From Aurantiochytrium sp. KH105 (taxonomy: Eukaryota > Sar > Bigyra > Thraustochytrida > Thraustochytriidae): a DNA stretch of 64,000 nt. The notes under the pieces are model-generated. The model saw only the letters and a list, made by a program, of their open reading frames with translations. It was not told the DNA's origin and ran no database searches. Positions 16,860-64,000 of this stretch are shown piece after piece; position 1 is the first letter of the stretch; the number at the start of each line of letters is the position of its first letter. Location of the stretch: positions 124,001-188,000 of the forward strand of contig BGKB01000067.1 of assembly GCA_003116975.1 (NCBI GenBank), given 5' to 3'. The position numbers and the translations under genes were made by a program.

Positions 16860-17642
16860 GGTCGCGCCCCGCGCTTGGACGGTCGGGACGTCCGGACCGC
16901 AGGTTTGTCGCGCCTCGAGGCCACGCTCCGACTGCTGCTGCGAGCGTCGCAGGCACGCTCGCGCGGGCCTCTCCCGCGCGGGCGCCGGACTCGCGAGACT
17001 GCGAACGGGCGGCGCGCGCGGAGGGTCTCGCGGGCGAGGTCTCATGCCGGTCTATCCATGGTCGAGGCGCGGCTGACCTGCCTCGCTCACTTCTTCTTCG
17101 CCGCCGGCATCTCTTCTTCCCTGGCCACGCCACGCCGCGCAGAGCTCGACGCGATCCCGTCGGCACGCGCGGCAAAAGGGAGACCGCGGGGCGTCGCAAG
17201 TTCGCGCCGCGCGAGGGCGACTCTCCGGTCCGGGTTCGTGGCGCCCTCGGCGCGCACGATGGACGGATGGATGCATGGATGGATGGATGGATGGATGGAT
17301 GGATGTGATATGATGACCGACTTTGGGGTGCGAGGCCATGGCGCTCGACGCGGCGAGACGCGCGCGCAGATCGAAGAGAGGCGAAGAGACGACGCGTCGG
17401 GCGCCCGGCGCCGCGCTGGCCTGGCCTGGCGAGAGGGAGGTCCACTTGGGCTGCTGAGCGAGGGCCCTCGCGCGTCGCAGGAGATCGGCCATGGCCGGCA
17501 TCCGCGACGTGCGAATGATACTTTGTGAATGCAACAAGCAGCACGAGGTAGATGGTGCAGCAAACCCGGAACGTGCTGCTGCGTCTTCTTGCTCTTCTTC
17601 TTCGACGTCCGCGCCGAGTCCGCGGGCGGAGCAGACGCGACC
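16860..17642. promoter_or_regulatory. Divergent upstream region with GGAT microsatellite
   Basis: The shared upstream region of the monooxygenase and APH-like genes. It contains a GGAT array at 17261-17305. No reliable promoter elements could be assigned. Confidence 0.4.
17261..17305. repeat. GGAT tetranucleotide microsatellite
   Basis: About ten GGAT units, one interrupted by ATGC. It is the reverse complement of the CATC-type tract at 12016-12079. Confidence 0.9.
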
Positions 17643-18899
17643 ATGCGCGGCACCCTCGCGTGGGCGCGCGCGGTGTCCAGCGTAGCCTGGCACTGGTTCC
17701 GCGTGGCCATCCTCGAAGGCGGCATGGTGAAGAAGCTGACGCTGCAGGCGCTGCCGACGCCGCTGAGTGTGCCTTTTCTGCGCGCGACGTGCCGCGCCGA
17801 CATCAAGGACAACGAGCTTGCCGAGACGCAGAGCGCTGACGAGGAGAACCTCGACGATGGATCAAGGGTTGGCGTCAAGGGCGTTAACGGCGAGACCTCG
17901 AGACTGCTCGTGGTGTCCGGCAAGAAACCCGACGAAACGCTGCGCTATATCGTCAAGCGCCCACCGCCCGAAGGGTCGAAGGTGCGTGAGGTCGCGGGGC
18001 TGCAACGCTGGCCCGAACGCGAGTGCAAGTTTTACACCGAGCTCGCGCAATTTGTACCGTGCAAAACACCTCGTTGCGTTTTGGCTGAGCGACGCGACTC
18101 CATTGATTTCGTGCTTGTGCTCGAAGAGCTCCAGCCCGCCGAATGGTTCACGCACGACGATGCGCAAGGATTGACTTTTCGCCAGGCTCTTGCTGCCGTT
18201 TGCGCGATTGGAAAGGTCCACGCCGCCTTTCGTTCAAGCCCGCATCTCGACAAGTCGTGGCTTCCGATCCTCCCTGTGCAACTCCCGCTCGTCCCCTTCT
18301 TGGTCAGCCATTTGGAGACCGTGTGGCCCGCGGTTGAAAAGATTCACCGTGACGACATTCCTGAGGATATTCGCGCCAAGGTGGGGGCACTTGCCTCACA
18401 ATACGAGGCCCTCTCGGAGCGCCTGGCCGCAGCGCCGCGCACGCTCGTGCACGGCGACTTTCGCGCAGAGAATATGCGTTTCCGGATCGCGACCCCGGGC
18501 CTTTTCTCGCCGACGCCCAATTCGATCTCCCCTTCCACACTCACGCCCGGTGATCTTGCTGCTGGAGGTGAAGTCGAGGTGGCTGTCTTTGATTGGGCCA
18601 TGTGTTCTCAGGGAAATGGCGTCTACGATTTCGTCTACGTTCTGGTTCTCTCGCTCACTCGAGATACGTTACGGAAACACGAGCAAGCACTTGAGGATGC
18701 CTACTGTCACGCCGCAGGTATCACCAATGATGCACAACTTCGCGAACTCAAACAGGCGGCACTTTTGATCATTTTCGCATCGTATATTTTTGGCGCGGTT
18801 GCTGGCGTCGAGGACGAGTCTGCGCGGCCAACGCACGCAATTGGCTTTCAACGCCTCTGCGCTGCCATTGAAGAGTGGGATGCGATGCGCCTCCTGTAA
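17643..18899 (+). CDS. Aminoglycoside phosphotransferase-like small-molecule kinase
   Basis: A 418-residue protein of the APH/ecdysteroid-kinase-like fold. Visible motifs are a nucleotide-binding lysine in RYIVKRPPP (K105), the catalytic loop LVHGDFRAEN (270-277) and the metal-binding VFDWAM (D317). These kinases phosphorylate hydroxyls on small molecules such as choline, sugars, steroids or antibiotics. The true substrate cannot be inferred. About 20 residues between the catalytic loop and the metal motif form a Ser/Pro-rich insertion. The ATG at 17643 was chosen over an upstream open frame beginning at 17529. The gene is divergent from the monooxygenase and convergent with E1. Confidence 0.85.
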   Translation: MRGTLAWARAVSSVAWHWFRVAILEGGMVKKLTLQALPTPLSVPFLRATCRADIKDNELAETQSADEENLDDGSRVGVKGVNGETSRLLVVSGKKPDETLRYIVKRPPPEGSKVREVAGLQRWPERECKFYTELAQFVPCKTPRCVLAERRDSIDFVLVLEELQPAEWFTHDDAQGLTFRQALAAVCAIGKVHAAFRSSPHLDKSWLPILPVQLPLVPFLVSHLETVWPAVEKIHRDDIPEDIRAKVGALASQYEALSERLAAAPRTLVHGDFRAENMRFRIATPGLFSPTPNSISPSTLTPGDLAAGGEVEVAVFDWAMCSQGNGVYDFVYVLVLSLTRDTLRKHEQALEDAYCHAAGITNDAQLRELKQAALLIIFASYIFGAVAGVEDESARPTHAIGFQRLCAAIEEWDAMRLL

Positions 18900-55427: not shown

Positions 55428-58400
55428 TCAGTGTGAGAACGACGTGTACGTGTTCGCTGGTTGCGCATCACGATTGGCGTAGAGTTCACCGAGATCGCTC
55501 ATGTAGCGCATGGTGGGCCGGCCATGCGGGCAATTCCAAGGTTGCTTGAGCTGAGGCATGTTCCGCAAGACCTTGTACATTTTCGTGCGATCCAAGTCGG
55601 TTCCAATCATGATGGCGCGGCGACAGGCTCGACTCGCAAACATGGCCCGGGTGCGCGGCAGCTGAGGAGGCACATACTTGAGCTGGTCGCGCATGTCTTT
55701 TGGAGGCGGAGGATTCTCGCGCAAAACCGAGGCCAACTCACGCACGTCCTCTGGTCCGAACTCCGTCTTGAGGCTGTGAGGGATGCCCACAAGCCGCAAG
55801 CGCTGCGTGGCAGGAGTCACGACATCATCATCACCGTCCGTATTCGCGTTGTCGCTGGACTCGCCCGTCGCCGCATCCAAAGCAATCGCTTCTGGCGCGA
55901 AGCGGAACCCATTGTACTCGAAGATGTCGAGGTTGTCTCGAACAACTTGGGCGTCCGTGGCGCTAAGCTCGACTGGAAACGGTCGCATGAGTGGCTGGTG
56001 CTGGATCTTGGTGGTGATCTGAAGAGTCTCAAAAAGATACTTTTCATCGCACGCATGCTGGTCAAAAATGAAGAGATCCCTGTTGCATCGACCGATTATG
56101 AAGCCCTTGTTGAATTGACCAATCACCTCGACCTTGGCAAAGTCCCGCTTGCCAAACACGCGCTCGCTCCCTCGGCCTTCCTGGCCTTGCTTTCCGCCTC
56201 TAGATGCTGCTGCTCCTGCTGTTGCTACTGTTGCATTAGTGGCGCTCGCGCTCGCGGTTGCCCTAGATGCCTCGAATTCCTCATCGACGCCAACATCGTC
56301 GTCGAGCCCGGGAACAGCGCGACGACGACCGCTACTAAGACTTCCCTGTGTGCTGGTTTCAATGTCAGCACTCCTTTTTTCGAGAATGCTCGCATTGTCA
56401 CTTTCACCAGTGCGACTGCTTGCTCCGTCGGCAGGTTCCACGTCAATGCCCCGAAGAAAAGGGGCCATCTTGGCCTCGTCTTGAAGCTGAGCAGCAATAC
56501 GAGTCATTGAGCTGGTGCGCATGGCCACGTAGTCGGTGCGGAAGCGTTTGAGGTTCGGTAGCTCAATCACATTGTCATCGCCGTGCGTCAAATCGAGGAG
56601 CGTACCATCCTCGAGATGCAGCTGCGGGGACGCCGCCGTGACTCGTTTCCTCGGACGGGATCTCGGTGGTGGCATGGACCGGTCCACACGCGGAGAACTC
56701 GACGTGCGTTTGGCCTTTTTCCCCGGCGAGGATGGCGATCCCGGTGGTGGCGTCGCTTGCGGCGTCCGAACACGCTTCCTGCCTTGCGGAATGTGCGGGC
56801 TTTCCTCGGTGTCAGATTCGACACCGAGTGCATCTTCGTCGTGACCACTTCGTTCGTGTCCAGCTGCGCGTTTCACGGCGCACTTGCCTTTCGCTCGGGA
56901 TATCGACCGAACTCCCCGTTTGCGTGCTTGGGCTTGTGCTCCTGCTCGTTCTCGCACATTGGCCTCGGAACCATCCATGGCCTCATCATTGGCATCGTTT
57001 TGCTCGCTTTTATCATCACCGTCGTCGTCGTCGCCGCCGCCGCCGCCGCTTTCGTTGTCTTCGCCTTGATCTCCATCAATCGCAACTTCGTTGTCATCCT
57101 CATCTTGATCGTCGCCAACAAGCGCGCGAATACGTTCGATGCGGTTTCTCGATGTTGAGTTTTCAAATAATTCGCGATCTAAACTGCCAAGTGAACCTGT
57201 GGAATGCTGCTGACTTTCGGGTCCCCCCGATGCAACGGATGTTCGTTTCTTGTGGCTCTTGTTGCCGGCATTGTCGTTGTCGACATCTCCTTCGCCGACG
57301 GCATCATCATCATCATCAGCATCATCATCAGCATCATCATCATCAGCAGCAGCAGAAGCGGAGTTATCATCACCCTTCTCTCCACGATGACCCAAAGTGA
57401 CGCTTGTGCTTGCGTCGACATTGCGATCTCTTACAGGTAAAGCATCCATTTGGCTTGCAGAGACAAGCATTTCCTCATCGTCGCTAATATCGCCAGAACG
57501 ATGGCCACTTGTTTCGCCGCCACGCTGGGCACTTCCTGCGCCTGCACGGATAGATAGACCACCTGTAGAGGCAGGCGTTGGCGGAGGAGCCGCTGGTAAT
57601 TTTGACTCTGTAACCTCTAATGCAAAGGCCTGCGACGACATTTTCTGCTTTGCTGGAGTACCAAGACCAGACGCGAGGTTGCCGCCAAATGCGGCAGCGG
57701 CAGCTGCAGCTGAAGTAGAAGCGGAAGAGGTGTTCCACAAGTCGCGCACGGTCTGCGACTGAGTCATGATGTTATCGTCCCGTTTCCACAAGTCTTCGAA
57801 TTGTGTTTTGAGCTGCGCAAGAAGAACCTCCTCGCCGACGAGAAAGACTTCGCGCTTGTCCGGCGTCACATTGATGTCATACGATCCGGGTGGGACGATC
57901 CAATTGAGGAAAATTGCAGGTTTGTGTTTCATCTCGTGCTGTCTGTACACACTGTTGATGATGCGCGATCCTTTGGAAAAGTCAACAGGCCGCCCATTCA
58001 TGTACCAGAATTGGCGGTCACTGCTCCCGAGGCCAATGCCTCCCCCAACTTTGGAAACGAACCCTTGGAGCTTGATTTGGTTCGAAGAAGCACCGTTGCC
58101 CATGTCGTTCTTATCGTTGTCATCGTCGTCGTCGTCATTATCGTTCTCGCCTTCAGCATCGATCGCGATCCTTTTTCCAGTCGCTCTTTCCTTGACATTG
58201 TCGCCATCGCCATCGCCGTCACTATCGTCGTCTTCTGCCCCCGCAGCGTCTGGGTCGAAGCCCGCCTGTGCAAAAGGACGTGACTTTGGCCGTTTGCCTG
58301 TGCGTGAATCCGTTGTTCGTGGCTGCTTCCCCGCGGCAGTTCTGAGCGCGTCCTCCGACTGGAGTTGCATATCAATGGGCTCGAGACTGTTTGCAAGGCT

Positions 58401-59387
58401 TACACCGAAAAGGGAAGTGATACTCGCCTTGATTGTCTTGGCCCCGGTGGTCTGTAACATGATCTTTTTGTTGGTTGCAGAGGTGTGGTGTGTGCAAGAG
58501 ATGCGCACTCCTGAGCACATGACGGCGTACGCCTGGAGCAATAGCAGCATGCGAGAAAACTGCGTTTTGATTGTTCGTTGAAATTCGCGACGACGTACAG
58601 GCAAGGTGCTAAAGAGCTCGCTGATTGTGATTTGCGTGCCGACCGTTCGCTGTTGCGGCGATTCGTCGAGCAGGGTGCCGTCGCGTCGAAAGGTGGCACG
58701 CAGGCCAGCAATGTCATTTTCGGTGCGCGTAAAGACCTCAATGCCGCCTTCGGGGCAAAGGTCGCACAAAGACGAGAGGGCCTCGCCACGGAAACCAAAC
58801 GAGCGCACGCCCGCAAGATCGTCAAAAGACGATATCTTGGATGTCCAGTGTTTTTGCATCATCTTCTCAAGGTTATCGCGCGACACCCCTGACCCATTGT
58901 CGGACACAGAAAACTTGGCAAGACCTTGTTTCCAAAGCGCGACCTCGATGCGCGTCGCGCCGGCGTCGAGGGCATTTTCCACGAGTTCCTTGACGGCTGT
59001 CGCAAGATTCGTGACGACCTGGCCTGAGCACATGCGCCGCACCACGGTCGCATCCAACGAGCCAATTTGTCTACCAGGAAGCTGCGATTCGTCGACATCC
59101 TCTTGCCCGTTGCTTTCTTCGATGTCGTCCGCGTCCCCGTCCCCCTGTGGCTTGCTCTTGTTCTTCGCTTCATTGTGGTCGTTAGACGCAGAGGCTGTCG
59201 GTGGTGGAACAGCAGCGCTATCGTCAACAGTGTCCTTGGACTTGAGATGGACGTCCGCACGACTCGAGACGTCGCGGCCCGATTCGCTCTCCCCGGCGAC
59301 TTCACTAGCTTTCCCATCCTCCGCGCCCGCAAGGTCGTCGCTAGCGTTGGCGGCGTGCTCGCCACGTTTTGCGGTTCCGCCAACCAT
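55428..59387 (-). CDS. PMS2: PMS2-type MutL mismatch-repair endonuclease
   Basis: A 1319-residue MutL homolog, partner of MLH1 in mismatch repair. The GHKL ATPase has [11 protein letters not shown] (residues 134-144), DNGSG (163-167) and FRGEALSSL (199-207). The transducer domain includes [19 protein letters not shown] (57990-58013) and [12 protein letters not shown]. The C-terminal domain has the endonuclease motif [12 protein letters not shown], fitting DQHA(X)2E(X)4E, plus [13 protein letters not shown] and [17 protein letters not shown] for metal and MLH1 contacts. The linker between the two halves (about 600 residues, residues 480-1100) is acidic and Ser-rich and far longer than in human PMS2 (862 residues in total). 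The first 105 residues are a disordered extension. The ATG at 59387 was used because the frame opens with TTG. Confidence 0.95.
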
Positions 59388-60417
59388 GACAGCCAAATGC
59401 GCGATGCCTCGCGCAGCCGAAGGCGTCTTCGTGCTCCCCTCTTTTCTTTGTTTCTCCTCCTGCGCGTACTTGCTGCCTCAGCGCGCGCGCGTGTGGAGCA
59501 GCAGCAGCGGCTTCTGCGCCGCCAGGCGGCCCCGCAACGCGCTCTGCCCCAACGTCAGCTTGATCAAAATCTGAAGCGCGATTTTGCTCTGCTCGTTTTG
59601 GGCAGAACAAAAGCTGAGATTTCATTTCTCGAGCACAAGCGCTAAACTTTGTAGGCCAGCCCCTTTTCGAGGTTGTTCACCACCGGATTCGCTTGGGGGA
59701 AGTCGTCCACATGTACGTATACTGAAGAAGAGGAGAGGGTGAGTTTGCGCGTGACGAGACCTTTGATGTGCTGGAACAAGCAAACTGCACTGCAGGTGCC
59801 CCCCCCCCCCCCCAAAAAACTCCCAACCCGTTTCCCGCGTTTTTCGTAGAGGACCCGTCGAGAGGGAACGGCCTTTTTGCAGATTGCGTAGCGAGCGAGA
59901 ATAAGAGTTCTACTTTGTAGCGACTTGCGCTGGCTGAGCCAATTTGTGACGTGAAGAGAGGCGAAAGAATGATCATATCATCGCAGACACCGACGGTAAG
60001 CCGAGGGCTGAGGTACAAAGTAAAGTTCGTGTCTTTGCTACAGGAGAAAGAGCCTGATGCCATTTGCCCAGCTCTGTACATGTCTCTCTTTCTCTTTTTC
60101 TTTTCCAAATGATTGTTTTACTCTTTAGGTCGAGGCCCAAGCGAAGCCAGAAAAGGCCAAGGCCTGTGCGAACGCAAAAAAGTGGGTTTCCATCGATCCA
60201 TCCATCCATCCATTCATTCATTCATTCATTCATTCATTCATTCATTCATTCATTCATTCATTCATTCATTCATTCATTCATTCATTCATTCATTCATTCG
60301 TTCATTCATTCATTCATTCATTCATCGAAAACCTTGCAGCAGCCTAAATTTCATCGAAATGTGTTGACGCGGGAGGCACGCAAACTGCTCGATCGTGAAA
60401 AGTCGTCGCAACCGTCG
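59388..60417. other. Intergenic region with poly-C tract and TTCA array
   Basis: 1.03 kb between the PMS2 start and the stop of the CLC gene. It contains a C run at 59799-59814 followed by AAAAAA and the long TTCA array at 60195-60326. No gene is seen. Confidence 0.5.
60195..60326. repeat. TTCA tetranucleotide microsatellite
   Basis: CCAT units change into about 28 nearly perfect ATTC/TTCA units, with one TTCG variant. It is the longest simple repeat in the window and lies beyond the 3' end of the CLC gene. Confidence 0.95.
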
Positions 60418-62583
60418 TCAACTTGATGAAGGTGATTTTTGCCGCAGCGCCGCAAGCGCACGGAGGCCAAAGGCGAGACCGCAGGATGTGAGATGTGCCG
60501 TGATGCAGGCCATAAAAATTGGCGTTGCCTGCGAAGGACCAAGATTGAAGGAAAAGGCGATCATGAGTAAAAAGGTGAGTGGAACAGGAGCAACCGCAGC
60601 TGGCACGGCAGCCGTGAAGCAGGTGTCAGCCAACAAGAGCGGGAGAATATCTTGATCATCGATGACTCGCGCAAATCCGAGACCTACCGAGGATCCAATG
60701 AAAATGAGCGGAAATATAGCGCCGCCGATGAACCCAGAAGCGTTCGAGACGCCAAAGGCAAGTGACTTGAGAATTGCAGAGACAAAGAGTGTCTCGGGGT
60801 CGATGAGATGGACCGCTGCGAGCTTAGAGAGACCGGCCGTTTGCGTGCTGCCACTGCCGATGGTGAGAGGCGCAGCAATGGCAAGAAGACCAACGAGTGT
60901 ACCTCCTAGTACAGGAAGAATGACGTTTGCTGTGCGCGGATTCCGAATCACCTTGGTCTCGAGAAGCCCAAAGCATAATTTGGGGATTCCAGCGAGGAAA
61001 ATGACATGGACAAAACCCACAACGCCAGCCACGATGCCAATGATGGCGCCTCGGAATTGATCGCCAGCTTCGAACTGATGGGAGAGCTCGAGCGGATTTA
61101 AGGGAAGATAGGTCTTTCGAGCTAGGGCAAAAAAGACAGCAAAGGAAGTCGAAGCAGCAACTGTCATCATGCAGACTGCGCGCATGTACTGCAAGTGCAT
61201 TGTCTCCATGCGGCCGACTTCGAGCATGGCGACTACCGAAATGATCGGACTCGGAAAGAGCCCGCCCATTGCTCCAGCCATGCCATTGACGACATTTTGT
61301 TGAGTCATTTCGGACGAGAGGCCGCGATATTCGGACCACGCCTGACCGAGTCCGCCCCCAAGAGATCCCATGGCCGCTTCGGGCCCCAATGAAACTCCGC
61401 CGCAAAGAGATAGGAAAGACACGAGGACAACTTTGGCCGCCTCTTTGGGATCCACATGCTGCGCCTTGACCTCGGCGAAAAATCCACTCGTCTCGGCAGG
61501 AAAGTTGACGCCCAGCCGTAAAAGGCCAACAACAAGTCCCATGCCCGAAGTGAAGGCCAGCCAGAACCATTTGCCCGTTCCGAGCCCAACGGCCTCGGCC
61601 TCCGTAATTGAGGGGACGATAACATCTTCCCCAAATACGGCTGCTTGTACCTTTTCGATGGCCGTCAAGTACGCATAGGCAATCAGGCCCATGACGGCAC
61701 CAATGACGAGGCAAAGGCCAACGTGCTTCCAGAACGATGCTTCACCTGCGTACTTGGGAAACAGATTATCAAGCGGACGTTCTTTCGGAGCGTTGGACTC
61801 GTCTGCACCTGCCTCTGCAGGTCCCTCTGAACGTGAACTAGTTCCTTTTGCGCGATCCTCGTGATGATTCCCAGCATCGACGATGACCATGTGTGTATCA
61901 TCGATCGAACGGACGAGAACGCCGCTCGTGTCTGTGCTTGGCAGCGTCTGGGAGACAATGCTTGTATCACTCGCTGGTGAAAGGCGCACTTCTTCATTGT
62001 CCATCATTTGCCGCGGTGAAGTGTCCAAAGGTTGTGCCTGCGATAAAGCATGCGCGTCTTTCGTTTCGACTGACTGTGGATGCGAATCCTGGGCCGCAGC
62101 CCAATGGGTCTCAAGATGTTTCTCGATTTGTTTGGAGAGGGCGATCTTACCCTCCTCAGAGTTGATGATGTCGTCCTTGCGATCCTCAGGAATGTCGAGG
62201 CTAAGGAAATATGTAGGCTCGCGCGCGTCTTTGACAAAGGCAGCGTTTTGACGTTGGTACGCTTCGTGGAGAAGACGTGAAGCGTGGCCCAGGCTCTCTT
62301 GACGACCATTCACATACCAGAACTGCGCGGCTCTCTCTGGTTCTTCTTTGGAGCCGCCGTGGCTCTCTGACTCTTTGGCAGCGGAAGAAACGAAGCCTCC
62401 AAGTTTGACCTCGCATGGATGTCCTGTTTTTCGAAGGTCAACCTGAAAAGTCGCCTTGACGGGCGTAAGCTTGTGTGCCTGCTCCAAAAGGTTTGCGACT
62501 GCTCCTGGGTCTGTGTCTTTGTGTGTCTTTTGCAGGGGCGATGCTAGGTCGCCAACGCTGCTTGTGCGCGTCTTCGTCGGCAT
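60418..62583 (-). CDS. CLC-type chloride channel/transporter with MutL-transducer-like N-terminus
   Basis: A 721-residue protein in one uninterrupted frame. Residues 284-715 form a CLC membrane domain with about ten hydrophobic helices. Typical CLC positions can be aligned: PAETSGFFAEVKA (usual GSGIPEV), GGVSLGPEAAMGS (395-407, usual GxEGP), and SGFIGGAIFPLIFIGSSVG (selectivity helix N). The gating glutamate of GxEGP is displaced, so gating or coupling is probably not the standard type. There are no CBS domains. Residues 35-161 are not channel sequence but resemble a MutL transducer domain (separate entry), followed by a disordered linker (165-280). The start ATG at 62583 (MPTKTRTSSV) was chosen because the frame opens with TTG further upstream. 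A paralog lies immediately upstream on the same strand. The transported ion and membrane are unknown. Confidence 0.87.
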   Translation of the reverse strand: MPTKTRTSSVGDLASPLQKTHKDTDPGAVANLLEQAHKLTPVKATFQVDLRKTGHPCEVKLGGFVSSAAKESESHGGSKEEPERAAQFWYVNGRQESLGHASRLLHEAYQRQNAAFVKDAREPTYFLSLDIPEDRKDDIINSEEGKIALSKQIEKHLETHWAAAQDSHPQSVETKDAHALSQAQPLDTSPRQMMDNEEVRLSPASDTSIVSQTLPSTDTSGVLVRSIDDTHMVIVDAGNHHEDRAKGTSSRSEGPAEAGADESNAPKERPLDNLFPKYAGEASFWKHVGLCLVIGAVMGLIAYAYLTAIEKVQAAVFGEDVIVPSITEAEAVGLGTGKWFWLAFTSGMGLVVGLLRLGVNFPAETSGFFAEVKAQHVDPKEAAKVVLVSFLSLCGGVSLGPEAAMGSLGGGLGQAWSEYRGLSSEMTQQNVVNGMAGAMGGLFPSPIISVVAMLEVGRMETMHLQYMRAVCMMTVAASTSFAVFFALARKTYLPLNPLELSHQFEAGDQFRGAIIGIVAGVVGFVHVIFLAGIPKLCFGLLETKVIRNPRTANVILPVLGGTLVGLLAIAAPLTIGSGSTQTAGLSKLAAVHLIDPETLFVSAILKSLAFGVSNASGFIGGAIFPLIFIGSSVGLGFARVIDDQDILPLLLADTCFTAAVPAAVAPVPLTFLLMIAFSFNLGPSQATPIFMACITAHLTSCGLAFGLRALAALRQKSPSSS
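62101..62481 (-). other. MutL/PMS transducer-like segment inside the CLC gene
   Basis: Codons 35-161 of the CLC gene. The order LGGFVSS, then QFWYVNGR, then ASRLLHEAYQR, then PTYFLSLDIPED, then DDIINSEEGKIAL matches the order in the adjacent PMS2 ([52 protein letters not shown]). The underlying DNA for QFWY-NGR differs at 3 of the first 20 bases. No GHKL ATPase motifs are present in this gene. Homology is inferred by eye. Confidence 0.65.
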
Positions 62584-63173
62584 TTGTCTGTCTCTGACGT
62601 AGAAGCGACTGCAGCGAGGCCGAGTCTTGCTTGCGTGCGTCCGGCGTCCGGCGTCCTTATCGCGTGCCAAAACGATCGATTCGGCTTTTGCCTTTGCTTC
62701 GTCTCGCGCTCGGAGAAGAAGGAGAGAAGAAAGAGAGCGAGCGAGGGAAAGCGTGGGGCCGTGTCCACAGCCGCGCGCAGCCAGGCAGAGAGCGATGGCA
62801 CGCTGAAAGGCGGCAGTGATTGCAACGCCCTCACCTGCGCGTTCGACTCGCTTTTGCGTCGCGCTGGATCTGGGACATCACACCTTCACCTTGCCATAGC
62901 ATAGGCAAAAAGAGTCAGCGAGCGCTGAAAAGACGGCAAGTCTGTAGTGTAGCTCCCACCTCACTGTCGGCCAAGCGCGTGTGATACTACAACCGAGCTC
63001 CGAGTCATCACTGTTTGTTTGTGAAAAAGAACACCGCAAGAGAGGTTGCATCCCATCCTCACAATCGACGTCAGGATGACGCGAAGATGTGCTCCTCCCT
63101 CCCCCCCCCCCCCCCACCGAAAAAAATTGTCACTTTTGTTTGATTTTGATTTTTGACAACCTTTACCACGAGC
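62584..63173. promoter_or_regulatory. Spacer between tandem CLC genes
   Basis: 590 bp with a C run at about 63099-63114 followed by ACCGAAAAAAA. It should contain the promoter of the downstream CLC gene and the 3' UTR of the upstream one. No gene is seen. Confidence 0.45.
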
Positions 63174-64000
63174 CTATCGACGCGAACGTGCAGTGACGCC
63201 TAAAAGACTGAGCACCAGCCCAAATCCACAGGTGACAAGGTGCGAAGCAATGCAGGCGACAAAAATAGGCGTAGCTTGCGATGCTCCGAGATTGAAGGTG
63301 AAAGCAATCATGAGCAAGAAAGACACCGGCATTGGGGCCACCGCAGATGGCACTGCAGCTGTAAAACAGGCGTCCGCCAAAACAAGCGGGAGCTTCTCGT
63401 GATCATCGATCAGGCGAGCAAAGCCGATGCCGGTGGCCGATCCGACGAAAATCAAGGGGAAAATGGCGCCTCCTACGAAGCCACTCGCTTTGGCGATGCC
63501 AAACGCAAGCGACTTGGCAAAAGCAGAGGCAAAGAGTGTTGACGAATCTATTTCGCGAGCGGCTGCAAGACGCACAATACTGGCAGTCTGCAAACTGCCA
63601 CTGCCCACGCAGAGCGGTGACCACACGAGAATGCAACCAGTGACGAGCCCACCGAGCAATGGAGATGCCACAGTGGCAAGTTGCGAGCGACCACGAAGAA
63701 TACGTGCTTCGAACACGACAAAGATTCGTTTGCAGATACCCGCAATGATAATGTGGCACAATCCCAAAAGACCCGATAAAAGACCAATGGCAAGACCCTT
63801 GATCTGATCTCCCGAGTGAAACTGGTACGTAAGAGTGAGCGGGTTTAAAGGCAGGTAAGACCCTCCTTTGATAGCGAAAAACACGCCAAAGGAAGTGGAA
63901 GCCGCGACCGTCATCATGGCCACTGCCCGCATGTAGTTGTGATGCATCGTTTCGACGCGCCCAATCTCGGTCATGGTCGTCACAGCGATGACAGGGCTAG
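63174..64000 (-). CDS. Second CLC-type channel (partial, 5' end outside window)
   Basis: The C-terminal 274 codons of a paralog of the CLC gene at 60418-62583, in the same orientation and ending in TAG at 63174. The frame runs unbroken to the window edge, reading SPVIAV and then TEIGRVETMHHNYMRAVAMMTVAAST, against SPIISV and EVGRMETMHLQYMRAVCMMTVAAST in the neighbour. It contains SGFVGGAIFPLIFVGSATG, matching the selectivity helix, and no CBS domain. Whether it also carries the MutL-like N-terminus cannot be seen here. This is a tandem duplication. Confidence 0.9.
   Translation of the reverse strand, partial: SPVIAVTTMTEIGRVETMHHNYMRAVAMMTVAASTSFGVFFAIKGGSYLPLNPLTLTYQFHSGDQIKGLAIGLLSGLLGLCHIIIAGICKRIFVVFEARILRGRSQLATVASPLLGGLVTGCILVWSPLCVGSGSLQTASIVRLAAAREIDSSTLFASAFAKSLAFGIAKASGFVGGAIFPLIFVGSATGIGFARLIDDHEKLPLVLADACFTAAVPSAVAPMPVSFLLMIAFTFNLGASQATPIFVACIASHLVTCGFGLVLSLLGVTARSRR

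Follow-up and report, generated by a model that had tools for sequence, protein, structure and literature searches.

A predicted chimeric gene joining a PMS2/MutL transducer-like domain to a CLC membrane domain in Aurantiochytrium sp. KH105

Examination of a 64,000-nucleotide stretch of the genome of the thraustochytrid Aurantiochytrium sp. KH105 (contig BGKB01000067.1, positions 124,001 to 188,000; hereafter the window) reveals three neighboring genes on the minus strand: PMS2 (55431..59387), a predicted chimeric gene here termed CLC-A (60418..62583), and its tandem paralogue CLC-B (63174..63998). The frame of CLC-A runs from an ATG at 62583 to a stop at 60418-60420 with no internal stops, and would encode 721 residues; upstream of the first methionine (M1) it stays open for another 98 codons that include no further methionine. 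Its predicted product combines a PMS2/MutL transducer-like domain (62101..62502, residues 28-161, the start being approximate), which bears a QFWYVNGR motif (62302..62325, residues 87-94), with a linker rich in serine and acidic residues (61774..62100, residues 162-270) and a CLC membrane domain (60421..61773, residues 271-721). PMS2, the likely source of the transducer-like domain, lies 1.03 kb downstream and encodes a GHKL ATPase, a transducer with an acidic insert and a MutL_C domain. CLC-B lies upstream, encodes 483 residues, runs off the window, and is 61-62% identical to CLC-A in the CLC part. A second haplotype copy of CLC-A (contig C145:7535-9688) is 96% identical and has the same architecture; as this contig shows all three genes, with CLC-A fused in the same way, an assembly artefact was ruled out. 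Between PMS2 and CLC-A there is also a long ATTC repeat (about 60205-60326), the length of which differs between the haplotypes (51 gap columns).

The whole CLC-A protein did not match the HATPase profile of Pfam up to an E-value of 10, and a search of 59640-64000 for remnants of the PMS2 ATPase or C-terminus gave nothing convincing (best E 0.33 and 0.75, respectively), which ruled out retained pieces of either near the gene. The MutL_C dimerisation/endonuclease domain is likewise not found in CLC-A, its place being occupied by the CLC domain. The original prediction, made from the DNA letters alone, had described a single open frame joining a transducer-like segment to a CLC, with PMS2 1 kb away on the same strand and the GHKL ATPase missing; all of these features are borne out.

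The Pfam model DNA_mis_repair (PF01119) matches the entire CLC-A protein with an E-value of 0.008 (16.2 bits, residues 79-137) and residues 1-165 alone with an E-value of 5.7e-4 (19.9 bits, residues 59-137). Conversely, a search of 59640-64000 with the PMS2 transducer retrieves the N-terminal part of CLC-A (E 7e-9; 25% identity over 110 residues). In pairwise comparisons, from one of which the acidic insert of PMS2 was omitted, this part scores 93 against the organism's own PMS2 transducer, with shuffled sequences averaging 37 and reaching at most 62 (0/2000 as good; z 10.9), and none of 2000 shuffles did as well against a human PMS2 fragment (score 65, compared apart). Shuffles did as well in 349 of 2000 cases against the PMS2 ATPase, in 1692 of 2000 against the PMS2 C-terminus, in 154 of 2000 against MLH1 (z 1.6) and in 536 of 2000 against the third MutL gene of the genome (z 0.5), the last two values ruling out MLH1 and the third MutL as the source of the domain. 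The domain scores 22.7, 16.5 and 21.7 bits against profiles built from 83 MutL transducers, from 80 prokaryotic ones and from PMS2 alone, respectively, and its other-haplotype counterpart 17.1, 11.5 and 22.7 bits; the best of 5000 shuffles reached 6.6, 6.3 and 8.9 bits. Of 754 open reading frames, taken from the window and from two further loci, those of PMS2 and CLC-A alone beat the shuffles; against 5756 sequences, the 83-row profile recovers the CLC-A domain with an E-value of 2.4e-5.

When the first 271 residues are searched against the genome (76.0 Mb, 367 contigs), nothing besides CLC-A itself is matched at E-values up to 0.05 except the adjoining PMS2 in its two haplotype copies (0.02 and 0.04), and no other CLC gene appears; a scan with PF01119 found the three MutL genes, each in two copies, and beyond these CLC-A alone (E 0.023). 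A search of viral_contigs for relatives gave 7 pattern matches, none of them a relative. The alignment with PMS2 is clear from about residue 59 (KLGGFVS), preceded by a less tightly matching block, and confirms what was noticed earlier, the shared QFWY-NGR block and the same succession of blocks around it. Three positions that do not vary among 42 aligned sequences, N92 and R94 of the motif and D137, are retained in it. Together these computational comparisons show that the CLC-A domain is homologous to the MutL/PMS2 transducers.

A structure predicted for the domain with the help of a MutL alignment (40 of the 80 rows of a set holding the best 80 of 456 confirmed MutL loci) superposes on PMS1 (3h4l). 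In MutL transducers a lysine, Lys307 in MutL, contacts ATP and completes the ATP site. The residue aligned with this lysine of the xPxK motif is Glu144 in CLC-A (62152..62154), close behind which six residues are deleted, two alignments placing this gap slightly differently; in the same position the organism's own MLH1 has HPTK, aligned with the HPAK of MutL 5akb. Lys307 of MutL is named in the literature (PMC8179424). As judged from these alignments, the ATP-sensing lysine is lost in CLC-A. Given this loss and the absence of the ATPase, it is unlikely that the domain acts as an ATP transducer in the manner of PMS2. The earlier suggestion of a domain that couples ATP binding to DNA contacts finds no support.

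The CLC part is recognized by the Voltage_CLC model with an E-value of 7.1e-29 (101.5 bits, cut-off 24.8; residues 377-700), with no CBS domain matched in the Pfam scan, and no strongly hydrophobic segment precedes residue 282. It resembles the CBS-less CLC proteins, namely the PRK03655 ion channel protein (E 2.3e-13, although its 50 bits fall under the cut-off of 312) and the CLC-F fluoride/proton antiporters, in its Voltage_CLC domain, and differs from them in the extra N-terminal domain foreign to the CLC family; the similarity is weak and makes them candidate kin only. The CLC part alone had no match in the PDB at E-values up to 0.01, and a profile of CLC-A, CLC-B and a further paralogue, CLC-C, had CLC-F as its sole match there (E 0.001). 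Glu402 of CLC-A (LGPEAA; 61378..61380), where the gating glutamate of CLC proteins probably lies, aligns with a glutamate of CLC-F 6d0j in a weak stretch (9.7 bits, i-Evalue 3.5), and 6d0k has Q there. A glutamate at this probable gating position makes transport by CLC-A plausible. The transducer-like domain is absent from CLC-B and CLC-C, which fits its gain in CLC-A after the duplication that gave rise to CLC-A and CLC-B.

In light of the above, we consider it fairly probable that CLC-A is a chimeric, translated gene, a judgement that leaves aside what its N-terminal domain does. Several observations weigh against this reading, some concerning the resemblance and others, given further below, the coding status. 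The identity of the domain to transducers is low (23-27%), both PF01119 scores fall under the curated cut-off of 26 bits, and the C145 copy is missing from the genome listing for this model. A phmmer search of the N-terminal part against the PDB returned no MutL up to an E-value of 10, giving only low-scoring matches to protein A and SdrD. When predicted from the single sequence, the domain yields a poor model (predicted local distance difference test score, pLDDT, of 46.9) with no meaningful fold match (best E 2.0, unrelated); the better model was built with the MutL alignment and hence leans to the MutL fold. The low identity, the Pfam scores under the cut-off, the lack of a MutL in the PDB search and the poor single-sequence model favor a chance or convergent likeness to the MutL transducer, which was rejected by the shuffle, decoy and profile controls and which, given also the match to the adjoining gene and the preserved invariant residues, we regard as highly improbable. 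As a match to PF01119, which the original prediction had named as its check, the likeness is borderline, under the cut-off yet with an E-value of 5.7e-4 for the N-terminal part; an S5-like fold, as in MutL transducers, is suggested by the alignment-based model but not by the single-sequence one. The resemblance is, on this sequence evidence, real, and is missed by a Pfam scan at the curated cut-off. With regard to its origin, the organism's own PMS2 is the top scorer among 83 transducers (93, next 71). A tree of 26 rows and 100 of 149 columns, including 19 of the 80 MutL rows hand-picked for spread, places the domain on a very long branch (2.65 changes per column) with own and human PMS2 (ultrafast bootstrap 92, Shimodaira-Hasegawa-like approximate likelihood ratio 63, not starred). 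Given this score, the tree and the adjacency of PMS2, a local partial duplication, as previously proposed, is the simplest account of the domain, and a likely although unproven one. At the DNA level only a faint similarity survives, at best over 28 bp of the QFWY block (82%, E 0.07), and therefore the copy would be old or fast-evolving. A MutL-type domain from another source, be it a PMS2 paralogue of older date or a gene gained by transfer, would accord with a tree in which the sister group is own plus human PMS2 rather than own PMS2 specifically, and with the lack in CLC-A of the acidic low-complexity insert of PMS2 (about 88 residues; 58086-58349, residues ~347-434), itself variable between haplotypes. 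However, the rank of own PMS2 among the transducers, its position next to CLC-A and the fact that a clade of the domain with own PMS2 alone, while not demonstrated, is not rejected (approximately unbiased test, p-AU 0.40) speak for the neighbor, and we regard such another source as rather improbable.

Translation of CLC-A as one protein is predicted and appears likely. The domain segment scores 0.236 bits per codon in frame and the CLC part 0.144, the training set having included the CLC part and PMS2 and excluded the N-terminal part, and the other two forward frames over the segment have negative scores with 1 and 6 stops. One of the reverse frames across the domain, interrupted by 2 stops, has a score of 0.243, and the in-frame values are 0.112 for the presumed 5' leader and 0.100 for the linker; because reverse frame and leader also do well, the codon score is weak evidence. 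That it barely separates the segment from the leader would suit a CLC protein starting at Met193 (or Met232), everything upstream being either a fragment of a pseudogene or a small gene of its own, as would the same three bases before Met193 and M1 (CAA-ATG) and the short N-terminus of CLC-B. Such a start appears improbable to us, given that the whole segment is open in both haplotypes, that the 294 nucleotides before M1 hold no ATG, with six found further up before the CLC-B stop, and that the domain shows 2-4 haplotype differences per 100 bp as against at least 5 in 11 of 16 flanking 100-bp windows. Differences between the haplotypes that change or preserve the amino acid number 7 and 4 in the domain (ratio of nonsynonymous to synonymous rates, dN/dS, 0.49), 11 and 4 in the linker (0.85, with no constraint evident) and 9 and 18 in the CLC part (0.17). 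Further points against the chimeric, translated gene are that the domain ratio exceeds that of the CLC part, that amino-acid changes are not significantly depleted within the domain alone (7/11, p 0.21) or over residues 1-270 (20/30, p 0.13), and that the comparison rests on two haplotypes of one genome, which are not independent species. Significance is reached when domain changes are set against the synonymous sites of CLC-A (p 0.023) or the pooled local ones (p 0.003; both one-sided, uncorrected), the same comparisons giving p 0.40 and 0.22 for the linker; a constraint on the domain is therefore probable but weak. These values bear on the possibility that the PMS2-like segment, although of the same origin, is a near-neutral appendage, in frame by chance and translated but idle, with the CLC working without it. 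The ratios for domain and linker, that of the transducer of PMS2 itself (residues 436-534; 2 changing and 2 silent differences, dN/dS 0.27 on just these four), the long branch and the lost lysine favor it, and the shortfall of amino-acid changes against synonymous sites, the lack of stops or frameshifts in either haplotype and the retained N92, R94 and D137 oppose it; we give it a substantial chance, albeit well short of even. We regard a module with a function and an appendage that is merely tolerated as about equally likely.

For the chimeric, translated gene we propose that CLC-A arose when one of two tandem CLC genes lacking CBS domains, the downstream one, acquired at its 5' end a duplicate of only the transducer segment of a PMS2-type gene, and that this copy then diverged far and lost the ATP-sensing lysine. 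The N-termini of CLC proteins are generally cytosolic. The copy would be translated as a soluble, probably cytosolic N-terminal domain on a tether of ~109 residues, and may form a folded, ATP-independent module that regulates a dimeric CLC anion transporter, or docks partners on it, by binding a partner or itself. It seems to us unlikely that a eukaryotic lineage has domesticated a mismatch-repair transducer, without ATPase or ATP-sensing lysine, so that it now does regulatory or docking work; such a module might couple the two subunits or bind MLH1, the former partner of PMS2. The domain shares with the N-terminal fragment of PMS2/MutL the order of strands and helices, the QF.(Y/F).NGR block, the invariant N, R and D residues and the predicted superposition, but differs in the missing GHKL ATPase, the glutamate for the ATP-contacting lysine, the six-residue deletion and the fusion to a membrane transporter. 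According to a study of CLC-2, that channel is gated by its intracellular N-terminus in a ball-and-chain manner through a 15-residue hairpin (PMC10942593). CLC-2 offers a precedent for N-terminal control, whereas in CLC-A the long tether carries an entire domain homologous to that of a repair protein. Text searches of the literature found no description of a MutL/PMS2 transducer outside a GHKL protein and on a membrane transporter, in agreement with the original prediction, and the N-terminal domain of the predicted CLC-A product, seen in one genome, is of a type new to CLC proteins. If functional, it would indicate that ATP is dispensable for the working of the transducer domain; otherwise the locus would still be instructive, as a chimeric gene that a local duplication of part of another gene would have produced, next to its likely source and an unfused sister.

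The genome contains ten CLC places that form five pairs, representing two long genes and three short ones (CLC-A, CLC-B and CLC-C), and its MutL and CLC genes each occur on two contigs, as in a diploid assembly. CLC-C (L014:3804-5483, L015:3306-4985) has a serine (LGPSAV) where CLC-A and CLC-B have the glutamate, and the allelic dN/dS of the CLC part of CLC-A is higher than that of CLC-B (0.06). An Rfam scan of the window gave no matches at the gathering score. Elsewhere in the window (17529-18896) there is a gene matching the ecdysteroid-kinase-like (EcKL) and APH phosphotransferase families, here in a protist genome, and polyunsaturated fatty acid synthase-like genes, which hint at a labyrinthulomycete such as a thraustochytrid, are also present in the genome, with matches below the family cut-off.
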